Positions 38,324 through 46,711 of a DNA stretch of 47,597 nt are shown here, piece after piece (position 1 is the stretch's first letter; each line of letters opens with the position of its first letter). Both the position numbers and the translations under genes were made by a program. Origin of the DNA: an uncultured Mailhella sp. Lineage in GTDB: Bacteria; Desulfobacterota; Desulfovibrionia; Desulfovibrionales; Desulfovibrionaceae. The notes beneath the pieces were generated by a model. The model searched no databases. It saw nothing but the letters and a program-made list of their open reading frames with translations, and had not been told where the DNA came from. The DNA lies in assembly GCA_944322695.1 (NCBI GenBank), contig CALUPQ010000047.1, positions 1-47,597 of the forward strand, in the 5' to 3' direction.

Positions 38324-38412
38324 CCGTTCCCCGGCGGACGCGGGACATCTTGCGAAGATGCTTCAAATGACCGATGATGGAGAAAGGCATCCTCCATCAA
38401 CCCCGTGTGCGT

Positions 38413-41400
38413 ATGAGCGAATTTCGACAGATAAAAGCCTCCGCCGGCTCCGGCAAGACCTACACGCTGACCAGCCGCTTTCTCGACCTTCTGGCCGGCT
38501 CTTCCGGCGCCTCGTGGAGCCGTCCGCCCTCGGGCTGCGCTCTTTCCGGGGAGGAGAGCTACGGCTGGCAGGAAATTCTGGCCATCACCTTCACCAACAA
38601 GGCCGCCGCGGAAATGCGGGAGCGACTGCTCACCCGCCTGAAGACGCTGGCCCTCGCCTCTGCCGAAAGCGCCGCGAAGGAAACGTTCTGGAAACCGGCG
38701 AAGGCGCGCGAGGCCGTGGACATGCTCATCCAGAGCTACGGCTCTCTGAACATCCGCACCATCGACAGCCTGCTGCACCTCATGGTGCGCCTCTCTGCGC
38801 TGGATTTCGACCTGTCGCCCGACTTCGAGCCCCGTTTTTCCGAAAGCGACATCACCGGTCCCCTGTTCGACGAGCTGGCGGAGAGAGCCCGCGAAGACGA
38901 GGAGCTCGGCCTTCTGTTCCGCCGCGCCTGCCGCCAGCTGCTGCGCACGGAAAAAATGTGCGGCTTTCTGGCCGGCGACCGCATCCGCGAACGTGTGATG
39001 ACCATGGTCTCCCTCATGCTGAACGCGGACGGCTGGAGCATGCGCGACCTCGCGAGCCCGGAAGAGGCGGAGGAACATTTTCAGGCCGTCATGCGCGACA
39101 TACAGAACGAGTCCCGGGAAATCCGCGCCCGCCTGGAGCAGGAAGAACTGACGGCAAGCAAAAACTTTCTCAACGCCCTGACTTCCTGCATAGAGTGCGG
39201 AGGCAGGGCGAGCAGGCTGAAGAGCGACTCGGCCATGTTTCAGAAGGAAAGTTTCGACGACTGCCTGCTCAAGGTCTCCAAAGGCAACGCGAGTCTCGCC
39301 CTGCACGCTCTGTACGGCAGCCTGAAGGACGACATACGCGAAATCCGCGTGCTTCTCGGCGCGCGCAGGCTCATGCCCTTCGCCGAGCTGGCCCAGGCTG
39401 TCTATGCCGGACTGGAAAGCTATGAGCGCCAAAGCGGCATCATCGCCGCCTCGCAGGTGCCGAGGCTCGCCATCCGGGCCGCGGACGACAGCGAAGGCGT
39501 GAACGAGCTGTTCTGCCGCCTCGGTGCGCGCATCACGCACATGCTCATCGACGAATTTCAGGACACCAGCCGCGACCAGTGGTTCGCACTTCAGCCCCTG
39601 GCCGAGGAGGCGCTTGCCAAGAACGGCTCGCTCACCATCGTGGGCGACGTGAAGCAGGCCATCTACGGCTGGCGCGGCGGCGACGCCTCCCTGTTCGACG
39701 ACCTCGTGCGTGAGGGCTCGCCCCTGTGCTCGCTGGTGAAAAGCCCCGTATTGGAAACCCTGCCTTTCAACTGGCGCAGCCGCCGGAACATCGTGTCATG
39801 GAACAACGCCCTTTTCTCCCCGCTCGGCGACAGAAATACGGCAAAAAGCCTGCTCGCCCCGATGGCGGAAGGCGATGAGGAGCTTCTGGAAAAAGAAGCG
39901 GACCGCCTCTGCGAAGCCTTTGCAAAAGCCTCCCAGAGCGCGGAAAAATGTGCTCCCGGCGGTCTTGTGCATCTTGTCAGGCTGGAAAAGGGGCGCGGCG
40001 ACGAACAGCTGTCCACAAGGCTGCCCGAGCTTGTGGAAGAGCTGGGGCACTCCCGCTCGTGGGGAGACATCTGCATTCTCACGCGCAACAACGACCAGTC
40101 CGCCAAGGCCTCGTCCTGGCTCATGACCCGCCACATTCCCGTGGTCACGCAGGCCAGTCTGCTGCTCGCGGAACAGCCCGTCATTGCCGGGCTCGTCAGT
40201 CTGCTGCGCTTTCTGAACGACGCCGACGACGATATCGCCTTCTGGTCCACCCTGCTGTCCGAAGCGCTGCTGCCGCCCCTGCCCGTACAGCCTGCCGAGT
40301 TGTACGACTGGGCCGCACGCCGTCCCCGCAGAAGAAGCATGGCGCGGCAGTTCGCCGTGGACTTTCCCGACATCTGGCAGAAGGTCTTCGCCCCTCTGCA
40401 CGACAATGCCGGGCTTCTCACCCCCTACGACGCCGTCATGGAAGTGCTGGACCGATGGCAGGTCACACAGCGCCGCCCCGAGGCCACGGGCTTCGTGCGC
40501 CGCTTTCTCGAAGTGCTCTTCTGTGCCGAAGAACAGGGAGTTTCCGACCTGTCCGGCTTTCTTGACTTCTGGGACAAGACCGGAAGTCAGGAAAAGGCTC
40601 CCCTGCCCGAAAGCATGAACGCCGTGAGCATCATGACCATACACAAATCCAAGGGACTGGAATTCGACACCGTCATTCTGCCGTGGCTGAACTTCGCTCC
40701 CGGCCGGGCCTCGGACGACAAGGCCGTGTTCTGGAACAGCCGGGGAACGGGCCTTCTCGCGCCTCTGTGCAGGGACATGGGCAGGCCATGGCTGGAAGAC
40801 CGCATGGATACGGCCCGGGAGGACATGCACCTCATCTATGTGGCCATGACGCGCGCCGTTTCGGAAATGCACTGCTTCCTGCCCGACCCTGCCGAGGGCA
40901 CGGTGGCCCTCATGCTGGAAAAACTCGTCTCCCCTCTGGAGGAAAGCCTGCGGAAACACGGCGACGAACTTTTCTGGGGCGAAGAATCCACGCCGCCGTC
41001 CTCCCCGCGCCGCCATGACGAAGATACCGGACAAGGCCGTGAAGCGCTCCTTTCCCCCGTGCCGGATACGGCGGAAGACGCATCTCTGGAAGACGCAGAA
41101 GACTGGCGGCCCATGGACTGGCTGCCGCGACTCCGCATGTTCCGCAGCCCCCTGGAAGACTGGACCTTCACGCCCAAAAGGCGCGGCACGCTCATCCATC
41201 ACTGCCTCGAATCCCTGCAAATCTCGGGCGTCGGCGAAGCCTCGGCAAGGCGCGACGCCGCCCTTGCCGCCGCGCGCGGGGTGGCCACCTTCCCTCTGCC
41301 CGTTCCGGACAAAGACGCCGCGCAGAAGGAAGTGGAAGACATTCTCTGCTGGTACGCCCTTCAACCAGAAACCCCGCACTGGCTGGCCTTCGGCTCGCCG

Positions 41401-41652
41401 GAGCATGCCCTGCTGGACGGGGACGGACGGCAGTACCGCGTGGACCTTCTGGTGGACGACGGCCGGGAACTTGTCGCCGTGGAATACAAAACCGGCGCGC
41501 AGGGCGATTTGCCGCGCCCGGAACACAAAGAGCAGCTCTCCCGCTATCTTTCGCTGCTGAGGCAGGCCGGAGAGACCAACGTGCGCGGCGCGCTCGTCTA
41601 TCTCGACCGCCGCGAAATCTTCCCTCTTTTTCCCGGAGATTCGCATGAGTAG
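38413..41652 (+). CDS. addA: AddA: UvrD-type helicase with C-terminal nuclease
   Basis: Helicase-nuclease subunit that, with AddB, processes double-strand breaks for RecA loading. It has about 1079 residues. Superfamily 1 motifs appear in order: Walker A ASAGSGKT (9-16), FTNKAAAEMRER (motif Ia), LIDEFQDTSRDQW (near 380), VGDVKQAIYGWRGG (near 410), NWRSR, TIHKSKGLEFD (near 742) and LIYVAMTRA. The C-terminal PD-(D/E)xK nuclease domain ends with VDLLVDDGRELVAVEYKTG (near 1022). A longer start at 38374 is in frame, but neither has a clear ribosome binding site; 38413 is chosen because family members begin just before the Walker motif. addB overlaps its end by 8 bases. Confidence 0.93.
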   Translation: MSEFRQIKASAGSGKTYTLTSRFLDLLAGSSGASWSRPPSGCALSGEESYGWQEILAITFTNKAAAEMRERLLTRLKTLALASAESAAKETFWKPAKAREAVDMLIQSYGSLNIRTIDSLLHLMVRLSALDFDLSPDFEPRFSESDITGPLFDELAERAREDEELGLLFRRACRQLLRTEKMCGFLAGDRIRERVMTMVSLMLNADGWSMRDLASPEEAEEHFQAVMRDIQNESREIRARLEQEELTASKNFLNALTSCIECGGRASRLKSDSAMFQKESFDDCLLKVSKGNASLALHALYGSLKDDIREIRVLLGARRLMPFAELAQAVYAGLESYERQSGIIAASQVPRLAIRAADDSEGVNELFCRLGARITHMLIDEFQDTSRDQWFALQPLAEEALAKNGSLTIVGDVKQAIYGWRGGDASLFDDLVREGSPLCSLVKSPVLETLPFNWRSRRNIVSWNNALFSPLGDRNTAKSLLAPMAEGDEELLEKEADRLCEAFAKASQSAEKCAPGGLVHLVRLEKGRGDEQLSTRLPELVEELGHSRSWGDICILTRNNDQSAKASSWLMTRHIPVVTQASLLLAEQPVIAGLVSLLRFLNDADDDIAFWSTLLSEALLPPLPVQPAELYDWAARRPRRRSMARQFAVDFPDIWQKVFAPLHDNAGLLTPYDAVMEVLDRWQVTQRRPEATGFVRRFLEVLFCAEEQGVSDLSGFLDFWDKTGSQEKAPLPESMNAVSIMTIHKSKGLEFDTVILPWLNFAPGRASDDKAVFWNSRGTGLLAPLCRDMGRPWLEDRMDTAREDMHLIYVAMTRAVSEMHCFLPDPAEGTVALMLEKLVSPLEESLRKHGDELFWGEESTPPSSPRRHDEDTGQGREALLSPVPDTAEDASLEDAEDWRPMDWLPRLRMFRSPLEDWTFTPKRRGTLIHHCLESLQISGVGEASARRDAALAAARGVATFPLPVPDKDAAQKEVEDILCWYALQPETPHWLAFGSPEHALLDGDGRQYRVDLLVDDGRELVAVEYKTGAQGDLPRPEHKEQLSRYLSLLRQAGETNVRGALVYLDRREIFPLFPGDSHE

Positions 41653-44641
41653 CCGCAGTTCCCGCTCGTTTTCCCCCTTCCGCATCGTACCGTGGGACGA
41701 CGATTTCATGCGGCGCGTCCACGAACTGGTCCGCGACGTGACGCATGGGCGGCCCGGCAAGGCCGTCATCGTCTTTCCGCTCAACCGACCGAAGCGCTAC
41801 CTGCTCGACATCTACCGCCATGAGGCAGACAAGCCTCTTCTGCTGCCGGACATCATCAACGCGGGGCAACTTGTCCGCACCTGTCTTGAAAGCTGGAGCC
41901 GCAGCGTTCCGCGCATGGCGGGCACGCTGGACCAGGTGGCCCTGCTCAAGGAATGCCTGCTCGAAATGAGCGCCGGAGAAAAACCGGGAAGTCCTCTGGC
42001 GCTTCTGGCCAAAAGCCTGGAAGAAGGCGACGGCATGGCGCGCTTCTTCCCGTGGGGAGCCCGTCTGGCCCGCCTTCTGGACGAATGTGCGGGACACATG
42101 GTGGAAGCGGAGGATTTGCTTCATGTGGACGACATGGTCGCGCCCTATGCCGTGGCGCTGCTCGGCAGCCTCGGCCGCATTCAGGAGCGCTACCGCGCTC
42201 TTCTGCGCCGCCGCGGCCTGAGCACGCCGGGGCTCGACGCCCAGCTTGCGGCCCAGCTTGCCGGAGCCTCGCCGGACCTTCCCCTCAAGCTCCAGGGCAA
42301 AAGCGTCATTCTCGCGGGCTTCGTGCGGCTCACCCGCTCGGAAGACGCACTCTTCCACTACCTGTGGGAGCACGGAGCGCATATCTGCCTGCATACGGAC
42401 GCGGACATTCTTTCCGGCAAAGGCCACTGGAGCTGTACGGAACACAGGGAATGGATGGCGCGCTGGAAGGCCAGGGGCGAAATTCTGGGAGAAAAAAAGG
42501 GCAACGAGCCTTCCATCCATTTTCATGCGGGCTATGACCTTCATTCCCAGCTGCTGGAGTTGAAAAACGAGCTCACAGCCCATCCTCACCCCGAAGAAAG
42601 CAGGGCCGTGGTCATCACCCACGACTCGCTGCTCATGCCCACCCTGCACCACATTCCTGAAAAGAGCATCAACATTTCCCTGGGCTATCCGCTGGAACGT
42701 TCTCTGCTCGCCCAGCTGGTGGAAAGAATTCTGCAGGCAAGGCAGAGCATGGACAGCGCCGGACGGGTTCACTGGAAAAGCCTCCTCGCGCTCATCCGCC
42801 ATCCCTACGTCCGCATGCTCTGCGTGCCCTCCGAAGCCGAAGAAGGCACCCCTCTTCCCCTGCGCACCTTCCTCTCCCGCATGGAGGAGCGCCTGCGCAC
42901 GGGCAGCCGCATGGTGGAGGCCGGTCCCTGCGCCTCCGACCTGGTGGACGAAATCCTGGGCGACCTGGAAAGAAGTCTCCCTTCGGAAGACCTTACGGAG
43001 GCCACGGGGCAGCTTCTGGAAAAGCTCATGGACGTTCTCGTGGCTTCCTGGAAAGACGTGACCACGCTGAGCGGACTCGCTGCCCGTCTGAGGGAACTGT
43101 GCCGTCTGCTGCTCGATAACGGCGCGCACATCTGGCCGCGTTTTCCTCTGGACGCGGAGTGTCTGGCCAGGCTCATGCAGAGCGTCATTCCCGCCCTTTC
43201 CGACAACGCCATGGCAGACGAGTGCCTTTCCATGGAATCGCTCTTCGCCATCGTGCGGGAGAGCATGGCAGAACAGCGCGTCCCCTTTGAGGCCGACCCG
43301 CTGACGGGCCTTCAGATTCTGGGCACGCTGGAGACGCGTCTGCTGCACTTCGACAGGGTGTATCTGCTGGATGTCACCGAAGACGCCCTGCCCGGCGCTC
43401 CCGCGCGCGACCCGCTTCTACCCGACAGCCTGCGCCCCCTGCTCGGCCTGCCCGACAACAGTCGGCGCGACATGCTCGCCGCCCACACCTTCCACCGCCT
43501 CATAGCCGGCGCAAAGGAAGTGTTCCTCTACTGGCAGGAAGGCGTGCAGACCGGCGTGATGGACGGCAAGAAAAGCCGCTCCCGCCTGGTGGAAGAAGCC
43601 ATCTGGCGCGTGGAAAAACGCAGGGGAGAACTTCTGCGCCCGGGCAGGGAACCGCTTTTCGCCTCCGTCTTTCCCATGTCGGAACCTCCGGCCGTCCCGT
43701 ACGCCCCCATTCCCCGGACGGCCGCCGTCAATGAACGGATGCTGGAAGTGCTCGGCAAAAAACTCTCTCCCACGGCGCTCGACACCTACATTTCCTGTCC
43801 CGCGCGCTTCTTCCGGCAGTACGTCTGCTCGCTGAAGGAGCAGGACGAGGTGCTGGAAGGGGACGACCACCTCGGCGTGGGCACCATGCTGCACACCGTG
43901 CTGCAGCGCGCCTTTCAGCCGTTTCTCGGCAGGGCCGTACCCCACGGCGCGCCGGGCGCGGAAGAGCTCGAACGCCTGTTCTTCGAAGAGCTCCAGGCAA
44001 GCGACCTTGCCGTCAATCTTCCGGCGCAGAGCCGCTTCATGCTGGAAGCGGCCGGCCCTTCGAGGCTGAGGGACTTTGCCTCCGTCCAGCCTGACGTGCT
44101 GGAGCTTGTGCAGGTCGAGCATACCGTCTCCGCCACGCTGGAGGAAGGCGGACGCCGCTTCATGCTGAAAGGCAAGATTGACCGTCTGGACAGGCGGGAA
44201 CAGGGGCTGGTCATTCTCGACTACAAGAGCGGAAGCACGAGCCGCCAGCCGTCAGCCGGCTTCTGGGAGGACGAAACGCTCTGGAACGCCATGGAAAACT
44301 GGACGGCCGGTCTTCCCGACCCGCTGCCGGAGCTTGCCGGAGCGCTGCACAGCATACAGCTGCCCTGCTATCTTTATCTGTGCGGGCACGATGCGCAGAA
44401 CGCCGCGGCGCTCAGCCGCTACCCTCTGGCCGACGCGGCGCTGGTGCAGCTGGCCGACCGGGGAGAGGAACTTCCGCTGCTCGGAGCGAAGGCAGACGAT
44501 AAGACGCGCAGGCGCATCATCGAAGAACGCATCCCGGCGCTCCTGCGTTTCGTGCTCAGGCACATGGCCACGGCCACGGAATTTTCCGCGCGGCGCACCG
44601 AGCGCTGTTCCCGCTGTCCCTACAGAAGCTGCTGCCGCTGA
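41645..44641 (+). CDS. addB: AddB: nuclease subunit with Fe-S cluster
   Basis: Partner of AddA in the break-processing enzyme. The 998-residue protein has an N-terminal degenerate helicase-like region in which I see no Walker A motif, so it probably does not hydrolyse ATP. The C-terminal nuclease domain has LSPTALDTYISCPARFF and LVILDYKSGS (near 857). The [4Fe-4S] ligands that staple the nuclease domain in Bacillus AddB are all present: Cys718 in SCPARFF, and Cys988, Cys991 and Cys997 in the last 11 residues, a C-x2-C-x5-C pattern. The start lies 8 bases inside addA, so the two are coupled. No recD-like gene follows. Confidence 0.92.
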   Translation: MSSRSSRSFSPFRIVPWDDDFMRRVHELVRDVTHGRPGKAVIVFPLNRPKRYLLDIYRHEADKPLLLPDIINAGQLVRTCLESWSRSVPRMAGTLDQVALLKECLLEMSAGEKPGSPLALLAKSLEEGDGMARFFPWGARLARLLDECAGHMVEAEDLLHVDDMVAPYAVALLGSLGRIQERYRALLRRRGLSTPGLDAQLAAQLAGASPDLPLKLQGKSVILAGFVRLTRSEDALFHYLWEHGAHICLHTDADILSGKGHWSCTEHREWMARWKARGEILGEKKGNEPSIHFHAGYDLHSQLLELKNELTAHPHPEESRAVVITHDSLLMPTLHHIPEKSINISLGYPLERSLLAQLVERILQARQSMDSAGRVHWKSLLALIRHPYVRMLCVPSEAEEGTPLPLRTFLSRMEERLRTGSRMVEAGPCASDLVDEILGDLERSLPSEDLTEATGQLLEKLMDVLVASWKDVTTLSGLAARLRELCRLLLDNGAHIWPRFPLDAECLARLMQSVIPALSDNAMADECLSMESLFAIVRESMAEQRVPFEADPLTGLQILGTLETRLLHFDRVYLLDVTEDALPGAPARDPLLPDSLRPLLGLPDNSRRDMLAAHTFHRLIAGAKEVFLYWQEGVQTGVMDGKKSRSRLVEEAIWRVEKRRGELLRPGREPLFASVFPMSEPPAVPYAPIPRTAAVNERMLEVLGKKLSPTALDTYISCPARFFRQYVCSLKEQDEVLEGDDHLGVGTMLHTVLQRAFQPFLGRAVPHGAPGAEELERLFFEELQASDLAVNLPAQSRFMLEAAGPSRLRDFASVQPDVLELVQVEHTVSATLEEGGRRFMLKGKIDRLDRREQGLVILDYKSGSTSRQPSAGFWEDETLWNAMENWTAGLPDPLPELAGALHSIQLPCYLYLCGHDAQNAAALSRYPLADAALVQLADRGEELPLLGAKADDKTRRRIIEERIPALLRFVLRHMATATEFSARRTERCSRCPYRSCCR

Positions 44642-44728: not shown

Positions 44729-45163
44729 TCAGGCTCCGGCCTGCCCGTCCTCATCAAGCATCTCATCCAGTATGGCGCAGGTCTGCTTCAGCATCTCCCC
44801 GCACACGGAAACGAACAGCCCCTTTTCCGCGGCTTCGCGCATGACGCCCGGCTGCGTGATGTCCATGCCGAGGATGTCCCGGCAGGCGCGGCAGGGCTGC
44901 GTCTTCTCAAGCCGCTCTTCAAACTCCGTCACCTTCCGTACGAGAAGCGGCTTGACGCGCTTCGCCTCCTCCATGTTCTCCGCCCGGCCGTAGCGAAGCC
45001 CGAGCACGATGTGCGCGCCGCTGATGCAGCCGCAGACATCGGCATGGCCCATGCCCGTGCCGAAGGCCGCCCCCATGCCGATGGCCTGCGCCTCGCTTAT
45101 GCCGAGGCGGGAGGCACAATGCAGACAGACTTCCTGCGCGCAGTATCCCAGACGAGTCACCAT
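44729..45163 (-). CDS. C_GCAxxG_C_C family cysteine-rich protein
   Basis: A 144-residue protein of a small redox-type family named for its Cys pattern. Visible features are CAQEVCLHCASRLG, then GTGMGHADVCGCISGAHIVLGLRYG (the GxCGxxSGA-type core), then QPCRACRDILGMDI and a final SVCGEML. That is ten cysteines, several in CxxC-like pairs, suggesting metal or iron-sulfur binding or thiol chemistry; the biochemical role of the family is not settled. GGGGG precedes the ATG. It starts 15 bases downstream of the PadR/radical SAM fusion gene and so probably works with it. Confidence 0.88.
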   Translation of the reverse strand: MVTRLGYCAQEVCLHCASRLGISEAQAIGMGAAFGTGMGHADVCGCISGAHIVLGLRYGRAENMEEAKRVKPLLVRKVTEFEERLEKTQPCRACRDILGMDITQPGVMREAAEKGLFVSVCGEMLKQTCAILDEMLDEDGQAGA

Positions 45164-45178
45164 GAATTCCCCCTTTGA

Positions 45179-46642
45179 TTAAAACACTTCCCGAGCAGCC
45201 CCCGGAACCTCTCCGTCCCGGTCTGCGTCGGCTTTCAGCACATAGCCGTGACGAAGAAAAAGCTCGCGGGCTTCCCTGACGGTAAAGCCCTGCCATTCCC
45301 CGCTCACCTCTCCAGACTCTCTGGGAACGGCCCCCGTTTCCACCACGACCACGTTGGCGCCCCATTCCACGGCCTGCGACAGCGGCGGATGCACGCAGAC
45401 ATACGGCGTGCGGATACCTCCGCACAGGCGCACCACGGCAGCGACCCGGGCAAGACGCGCTTCCGGCACGCCTGCACGCCCTTCATACGGCGTACCCGGC
45501 ACATTGACGCGCGCCATGACGCCGCAGATTTGCGCTCCGGCAGACATGGCCGCAAGCATGACATCGGCAATCTCCTCATTACCGTGTTCCCCGCCCAAAG
45601 GCTCCACCAGGCAGGCCAGGGCCACGTCTTCTCTCCCTATGCGGCAAAGAGCCTCCCGGCGCAGCTTCGGGTCAAAGGGCGTATCTTTCCCTTCCCCGAG
45701 GCGCAGCGCATGGTACATGACGCCGAACCCCGCCTCGTGAAGGCGGCGTATGTCTTCACGGCTCTTCTGCCCCGTATTTGCCACAAGCGCGCAACGCTTC
45801 GGCAGCGAGGCACGGACGACTCCGGCAAGACGGCAAAGCCTCTCGAGCCCGTAATGTTCCGTCGTGCGCAGCACCATCCACGAAGCTCCTTCGGCCGCGT
45901 ATCGCCGTGCGGCAACGACAATCTCCTCTTCAGACAGCTCATGCTTCTCACGCACCACTCCCCACGCCTCGCCGAAAGCGCAGAAGGCGCAGTTCATGGA
46001 ACAGGGGGCCGAGTCCACGCCGATGGCCGCCCACACTCCCGCCCGGTTTCCGGCCGCTTCACGGGCCGTTTCCCGGGCGAGCCTGCCGAGATACTCCTCC
46101 TCCGGAGAACCGGGCGCATAGGCAAGCAGACGAAGAACGTCCTCTCTGCGGGGCATCTCCCCGTTCATGGCTCTTTTTCGAACATCCTCCATGAACAGCC
46201 GCTCTTCTTCAGGGCAGTATCCGCCACCATCCATGGCAGCAAGCCGTGCCGCAAGCAGAAAGGAGAGCACCCGCTCCGTATGGTCCCGGCTTCTGGTCAG
46301 AGAATCTATCCAGCGGTTGAGGCAGCGCCGCCCCAGAGCCGTAACGCGATATTTCTTCCTCTGCGGCCCCTCGCCTCTGTCGGTCGAAGCCTCCAGCACG
46401 CCGCTGCGCTCCATGTCGCGCAGCATGCGGTAACATCCCGTCATATCCGGTACCTGAGCACCGAAAAGCCCCGTCTCACCGAGCTTCTGCACAAGGACGT
46501 AGCCGTGCATGGACTCTTCCGCGAGAAGCGCCAGCAGCACAGGCTGCACGAAACGGGGAAGATTGCCCCCCGAACAGGCACAGGAATCCAGAATATCCAA
46601 GGCCTCTTCCCAAAGGCGTTTTGCCGAGCCGACCGGAACCAT
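45179..46642 (-). CDS. PadR-type winged-helix / radical SAM fusion protein
   Basis: A 487-residue protein that joins two families. Residues 30-130 form a PadR-like winged helix (PVLLALLAEESMHGYVLVQKL, CYRMLRDMERSGVLEAS, RKKYRVTALGRR, then a coiled-coil-like helix). From about 205 on it is a radical SAM enzyme with Cys214, Cys218 and Cys221 in CSMNCAFC, the CxxxCxxC motif that holds the [4Fe-4S] cluster and SAM, followed by barrel strands resembling the BioB/HydE-like group (for example ANTGQKS, ALACLVEPLGGEHGNEEIADVM, MARVNVPGTPYEGR). The substrate is unknown. The frame is continuous. Start 46642 has only a distant GGAG, so the N-terminus may be shorter. The neighbours are ktrA upstream and the cysteine-rich protein downstream. 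Confidence 0.88.
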   Translation of the reverse strand: MVPVGSAKRLWEEALDILDSCACSGGNLPRFVQPVLLALLAEESMHGYVLVQKLGETGLFGAQVPDMTGCYRMLRDMERSGVLEASTDRGEGPQRKKYRVTALGRRCLNRWIDSLTRSRDHTERVLSFLLAARLAAMDGGGYCPEEERLFMEDVRKRAMNGEMPRREDVLRLLAYAPGSPEEEYLGRLARETAREAAGNRAGVWAAIGVDSAPCSMNCAFCAFGEAWGVVREKHELSEEEIVVAARRYAAEGASWMVLRTTEHYGLERLCRLAGVVRASLPKRCALVANTGQKSREDIRRLHEAGFGVMYHALRLGEGKDTPFDPKLRREALCRIGREDVALACLVEPLGGEHGNEEIADVMLAAMSAGAQICGVMARVNVPGTPYEGRAGVPEARLARVAAVVRLCGGIRTPYVCVHPPLSQAVEWGANVVVVETGAVPRESGEVSGEWQGFTVREARELFLRHGYVLKADADRDGEVPGAAREVF

Positions 46643-46711
46643 CGACTATAAGCTGCTCCGATAGCAGCCCCCAAAAATCCGGTCTGCAAGAACCTCCGGA
46701 GAAAAGGCTCT

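Follow-up and report, generated by a model that had tools for sequence, protein, structure and literature searches.

A PadR-type winged helix fused to a radical SAM enzyme in Desulfovibrionaceae, and a candidate operator at its own promoter

Results

One frame for a PadR domain and a radical SAM enzyme

In the window (the whole stretch of Mailhella DNA analysed, 47,597 nucleotides), a single gene on the reverse strand joins an N-terminal PadR winged helix to a C-terminal radical SAM enzyme. We propose, as the fairly likely explanation of the whole, that its product is a self-regulating (trigger) radical SAM enzyme. The sequence contains the fusion, both folds as predicted, a conserved promoter palindrome linked with the PadR subgroup, and a set of conserved cysteines. 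The gene and the features of its N-terminal half are as follows.

45179..46600, (-): PadR–radical SAM fusion gene; TTG start probable, homologues start here; GGAAGAGG at 46603-46610
46574..46582, (-): Cys21-x-Cys23 motif ahead of the winged helix; invariant in A5, kept in radical SAM-linked PadRs and missing from most paralogues
46316..46537, (-): PadR winged helix, residues 36-109; PF03551 E 3.7e-12 and fold match to PadR structures
46235..46339, (-): long helix with Cys107 (codon 46322-46324), residues 102-136; predicted structure and Cys107 conservation

The 487-amino-acid open reading frame (45179-46642, reverse strand) has no internal stop and both halves are matched by profiles, in agreement with the earlier note, which had read a PadR domain and a radical SAM core in one frame. 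The first residue of the homologues corresponds to residue 15 of this frame, and a TTG at 46600 sits behind GGAAGAGG; therefore, this TTG is the probable start in place of the ATG at 46642, and the protein would probably be 473 amino acids long. Residue numbers throughout refer to the 487-amino-acid frame.

Nearly full-length fusions with 61-72% identity were found in seven other Mailhella-type genomes, and five further fusions in other Desulfovibrionaceae. Since these fusions are independent, a frameshift or chimera joining two genes, which the earlier note had named as the outcome that would undo its reading, was ruled out. The note had also known of no characterized protein with this layout, and none was found in the literature searched, mostly without subscription journals.

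The PadR half and its cysteines

PF03551 matched residues 36-109 with 46.5 bits (gathering score 27), within the span of residues 30-130 first assigned to the domain. The predicted model has a winged-helix fold followed by a C-terminal helix, as in 2esh and other PadR structures, and the PadR part modelled alone matched solved PadR proteins (2esh, TM 0.71/0.79). By analogy with other PadR proteins, residues 102-136 are a probable dimerization helix. The model of the PhaQ repressor (TIGR02719) gave 36.7 bits against an equivalog cut-off of 139.35 bits, and this assignment failed.

Of 41 aligned PadR rows, 32 have Cys21, 31 have Cys23, and 30 have Cys107. Those rows from which one or more is missing are PadR paralogues that are not beside the enzyme, and the three cysteines occurred together only in enzyme-linked PadRs. 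Such a three-cysteine site resembles those of thiol-ligand sensors, for example some ArsR proteins, and hence suggests a thiol-reactive or metal signal in preference to the one first proposed, SAM or an enzyme metabolite. A regulator of the latter type is possible. The narrower proposal that these cysteines, judged by their conservation, sense a metal or metalloid is tentative; a search of the literature for Rv3488 with cadmium yielded nothing of use.

The radical SAM half

The C-terminal half carries the following features.

45227..46213, (-): radical SAM barrel, BioB/HydE/PylB-like, residues 144-472; bioB model, PDB profiles, and predicted fold
45980..46003, (-): CSMNCAFC, three-cysteine [4Fe-4S] motif, residues 214-221; three cysteines in 68/68 family members
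45389..45397, (-): Cys416-x-His418, close to where the barrel ends at its C terminus; conservation of 91% and 94% across 68 family members

PF04055 scored 23.9 bits over residues 214-313, under its cut-off of 29.5, and a relative, L126, passed the same model at 39.6 bits. Despite this shortfall, other profiles and the predicted fold agree in placing this half in the radical SAM superfamily, as the earlier note had assumed: the bioB model (TIGR00433) matches with E 3e-9, PDB profiles of HydE and biotin synthase match at E 6e-11 to 5e-7, and the fold aligns with biotin synthase at Z 32.9 and with HydE at Z 31.0. The enzyme failed as a member of each named family: it reached 36.5 bits with the bioB model (equivalog cut-off 225), 25.3 bits with that of HydE (TIGR03956, 254.6), and 23.7 bits with that of PylB (TIGR03910, 348.2). 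Cys416-x-His418 may be an extra ligand or a substrate contact.

Distribution of the fusion and of the separate genes

The survey of fusions suggested in the earlier note was run on Desulfovibrionaceae, and 13 of 288 genomes, in two genera, carried an intact fusion; it is thus not restricted to Mailhella. In G018, an insertion sequence splits a 14th fusion between its two parts (L030, 9255-10062); it shows IS4/5-type transposase matches and a duplicated CTAG target. This natural disruption ruled out the split genes of G018 as an ancestral state. The enzyme family, fusions included, was found in 49 of 297 genomes in a search of the class and in 21 of 398 Bacillota. Elsewhere in Bacillota and other Desulfovibrionaceae, PadR and the enzyme are separate genes. 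A free PadR gene of the same subgroup adjoins the enzyme gene in Dethiosulfatibacter, G386, G516, G579, G454, and G421, is divergent to it in G150, G083, and G090, and lies elsewhere in the genome in G091, G166, G105, G671, and G506. Because in these relatives a repressor of this kind accompanies the enzyme as a second protein, the enzyme of the window probably controls its own gene.

These arrangements bear on another reading, in which neighbouring operon genes merged and the PadR part is a repressor merely tethered to the enzyme, with independent halves and with catalysis and DNA binding uncoupled. In Dethiosulfatibacter and Bacillota the two genes stand side by side, in agreement with such a merger, and the PadR and enzyme frames called for G386 and G516 overlap. 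Furthermore, G150 lies within the fused clade and has separate divergent genes; the fusion is therefore dispensable. On the tree, the fusion state needs two changes; a single fusion clade excluding G150 was rejected by the AU test (p 2.9e-5), so that either a single fusion was later split in G150 or fusion took place twice. Against uncoupled halves stands the fact that intact fusions persist in 13 genomes from two genera and that the sequence of both halves is conserved, and we give a merely tethered repressor about an even chance.

Operon partners and neighbours

The next gene encodes a putative redox protein.

44729..45163, (-): gene after the fusion, for a putative redox protein of the C_GCAxxG_C_C type; PF09719 E 4.4e-18, 15-bp gap

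It is probably in the same operon as the fusion gene, and a C_GCAxxG_C_C look-alike accompanies PadR or the enzyme at L028, L029, L036, L081, L089, L090, and L203. In G017, G064, G164, G063, Dethiosulfatibacter, and Bacillota, genes for an SsuA/NMT1-like ABC importer come after the enzyme gene; a search for the binding protein of this importer found none in the window genome (77% complete) or in most of the Mailhella genomes searched. ABC substrate-binding proteins near the enzyme (L025, L122, L206, and others) share the motifs GTWKTAQT and CNKCSALVV. A CxxC, when carried by a protein of the periplasm, is suggestive of a thiophilic ligand.

The covalent link to a DNA-binding domain and the lack of the importer in most Mailhella genomes searched would also fit an enzyme half that had become a sensor without catalysis, with DNA binding governed by the state of its cluster, SAM, or ligand. 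However, the fusions keep the cluster cysteines and the other near-invariant residues of the family; therefore, catalysis is probably kept in them, and we regard a purely sensory role as quite improbable.

Several other neighbourhoods were recorded. In the window, a RecB/AddA-like helicase and an AddB-like PD-(D/E)XK nuclease (38374-44641) are convergent to the fusion operon, and in the majority of the Mailhella loci examined this pair adjoins the operon. At L121, L199, and L200, acyl-CoA dehydratase activase-like genes and a double-cubane reductase (the latter at L121) were seen close to the enzyme and PadR genes. Desulfovibrio members of the same radical SAM family lie inside pyrrolysine/trimethylamine methyltransferase clusters (L027, L076-L078), with PylS and MttB matches at L027, a PylB match at L077, and an MttB frame at L027 ending at TAG, as pyrrolysine would predict. 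In other clades, relatives of the enzyme are beside TIGR04282/TIGR04283 arsenosugar-type glycosyltransferases (L031, L033, L123-L132) and, at L132, near ArsS. As these are sister clades and the PadR-linked clade is not beside such genes, no arsenic role is claimed.

A predicted operator at the fusion promoter

Ahead of fusion genes, the palindrome CTATTGGA-N5-TCCAATAG overlaps an apparent -10 box (TACTAT), read by eye. It was located at the fusion-gene promoter in G016, G018, G004, G013, G014, G010, G017, and G256; G016, G018, and G004 each have a single exact copy, in every case at that promoter. Scanning 13 Mailhella-type genomes with up to two mismatches gave 0-3 sites per genome. The window has a degenerate copy.

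46646..46664, (-): candidate operator CTATCGGAGCAGCTTATAG; degenerate copy of the palindrome, 2 nt shorter than that of the relatives

Both half-site ends are kept in this copy, which was the sole window match of a pattern drawn up post hoc (0.00 expected). A search for a sigma-70-type promoter match at this site found none. An operator-like site elsewhere in the window genome (G000:C84) lies within a coding sequence and was taken as chance.

A matrix was built from seven sites and applied, at a threshold of 12 bits, to loci outside the training set. Within 3 kb upstream, sites were present at 16 of 22 enzyme loci in genomes that encode a PadR of this subgroup and at 4 of 35 controls, the controls being loci in genomes without the PadR subgroup or unchecked, some examined near the enzyme gene only, with status partly assumed. 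Within 1.2 kb, the counts were 15/22 and 1/35 (rank test p 1.4e-6, uncorrected for kinship); related genomes are not independent in these counts, and one control site was counted for two neighbouring loci. The matches include Bacillota and three genomes with an unlinked PadR (G091, G671, and G506). No site of at least 12 bits was present at 6 of the 22 PadR-genome loci, namely G063 (11.1), G164 (9.2), G421, G064, G166, and G105.

The sites track the genomes that encode the PadR subgroup, and repression of its own operon is therefore the most likely role of the PadR domain. The earlier suggestion that the enzyme might bind DNA or govern its operon thus gained support, at the level of sequence, from a promoter palindrome that follows the subgroup across two phyla and from the separate PadRs beside the enzyme. 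Winged helices serve recognition roles in other radical SAM systems, as RiPP recognition elements do, and the one here could likewise be a protein- or peptide-recognition or dimerization module without DNA binding. This reading is quite improbable given that the palindrome tracks the PadR subgroup whether fused or free; on casual inspection, no precursor peptide was seen beside the gene.

Discussion

For the proposed self-regulating enzyme, we infer its binding to DNA, the repression, the nature of the signal, and whatever coupling may link the two halves as follows. The N-terminal PadR domain would dimerize and bind the palindrome that covers the -10 box at the promoter of its own gene, thereby repressing an operon of the fusion gene, the C_GCAxxG_C_C protein gene, and, in some relatives, the SsuA/NMT1-like ABC importer. 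Judging from the conserved sites, self-regulation through this palindrome is likely. The C-terminal half would act as a radical SAM enzyme of a BioB/HydE/PylB-like family without an assigned member function. Repression would probably be relieved by a thiol-reactive or metal ligand at Cys21, Cys23, and Cys107 or, alternatively, by a change of state in the enzyme part. A stronger version, in which the cluster, SAM, or substrate state switches the attached PadR domain in addition to thiol-ligand sensing by the three cysteines, seems unlikely; if true, catalysis and operon transcription would be coupled within one molecule.

The radical SAM family to which the analysis points is unassigned and widespread; with it come a probable regulator and an operator prediction open to direct testing, and the fusion is a candidate self-regulating radical enzyme. 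The operator, the cysteines, and the partner genes (redox protein and SsuA-like importer) offer handles toward the substrate.

The N-terminal half resembles the PadR family (PF03551; LmrR, TM0937, and PhaQ-like proteins) in its winged helix, its long C-terminal helix, and the palindromic site at its own promoter. PadR regulators, in contrast, are normally stand-alone, and the paralogues examined lack the Cys21/23/107 set; we know of no PadR regulator fused to a radical SAM enzyme. The C-terminal half shares with HydE, BioB, and PylB the CxxxCxxC motif, a full barrel, and the fold (Z 29-33), whereas it scores far under every named family cut-off and has other conserved residues, such as Cys416-x-His418. 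PutA is a trigger enzyme, with DNA-binding and catalytic parts on one chain. Although its domains are unrelated to those described here and the coupling in the fusion is putative, the fusion likewise combines DNA-binding and catalytic parts in one polypeptide.
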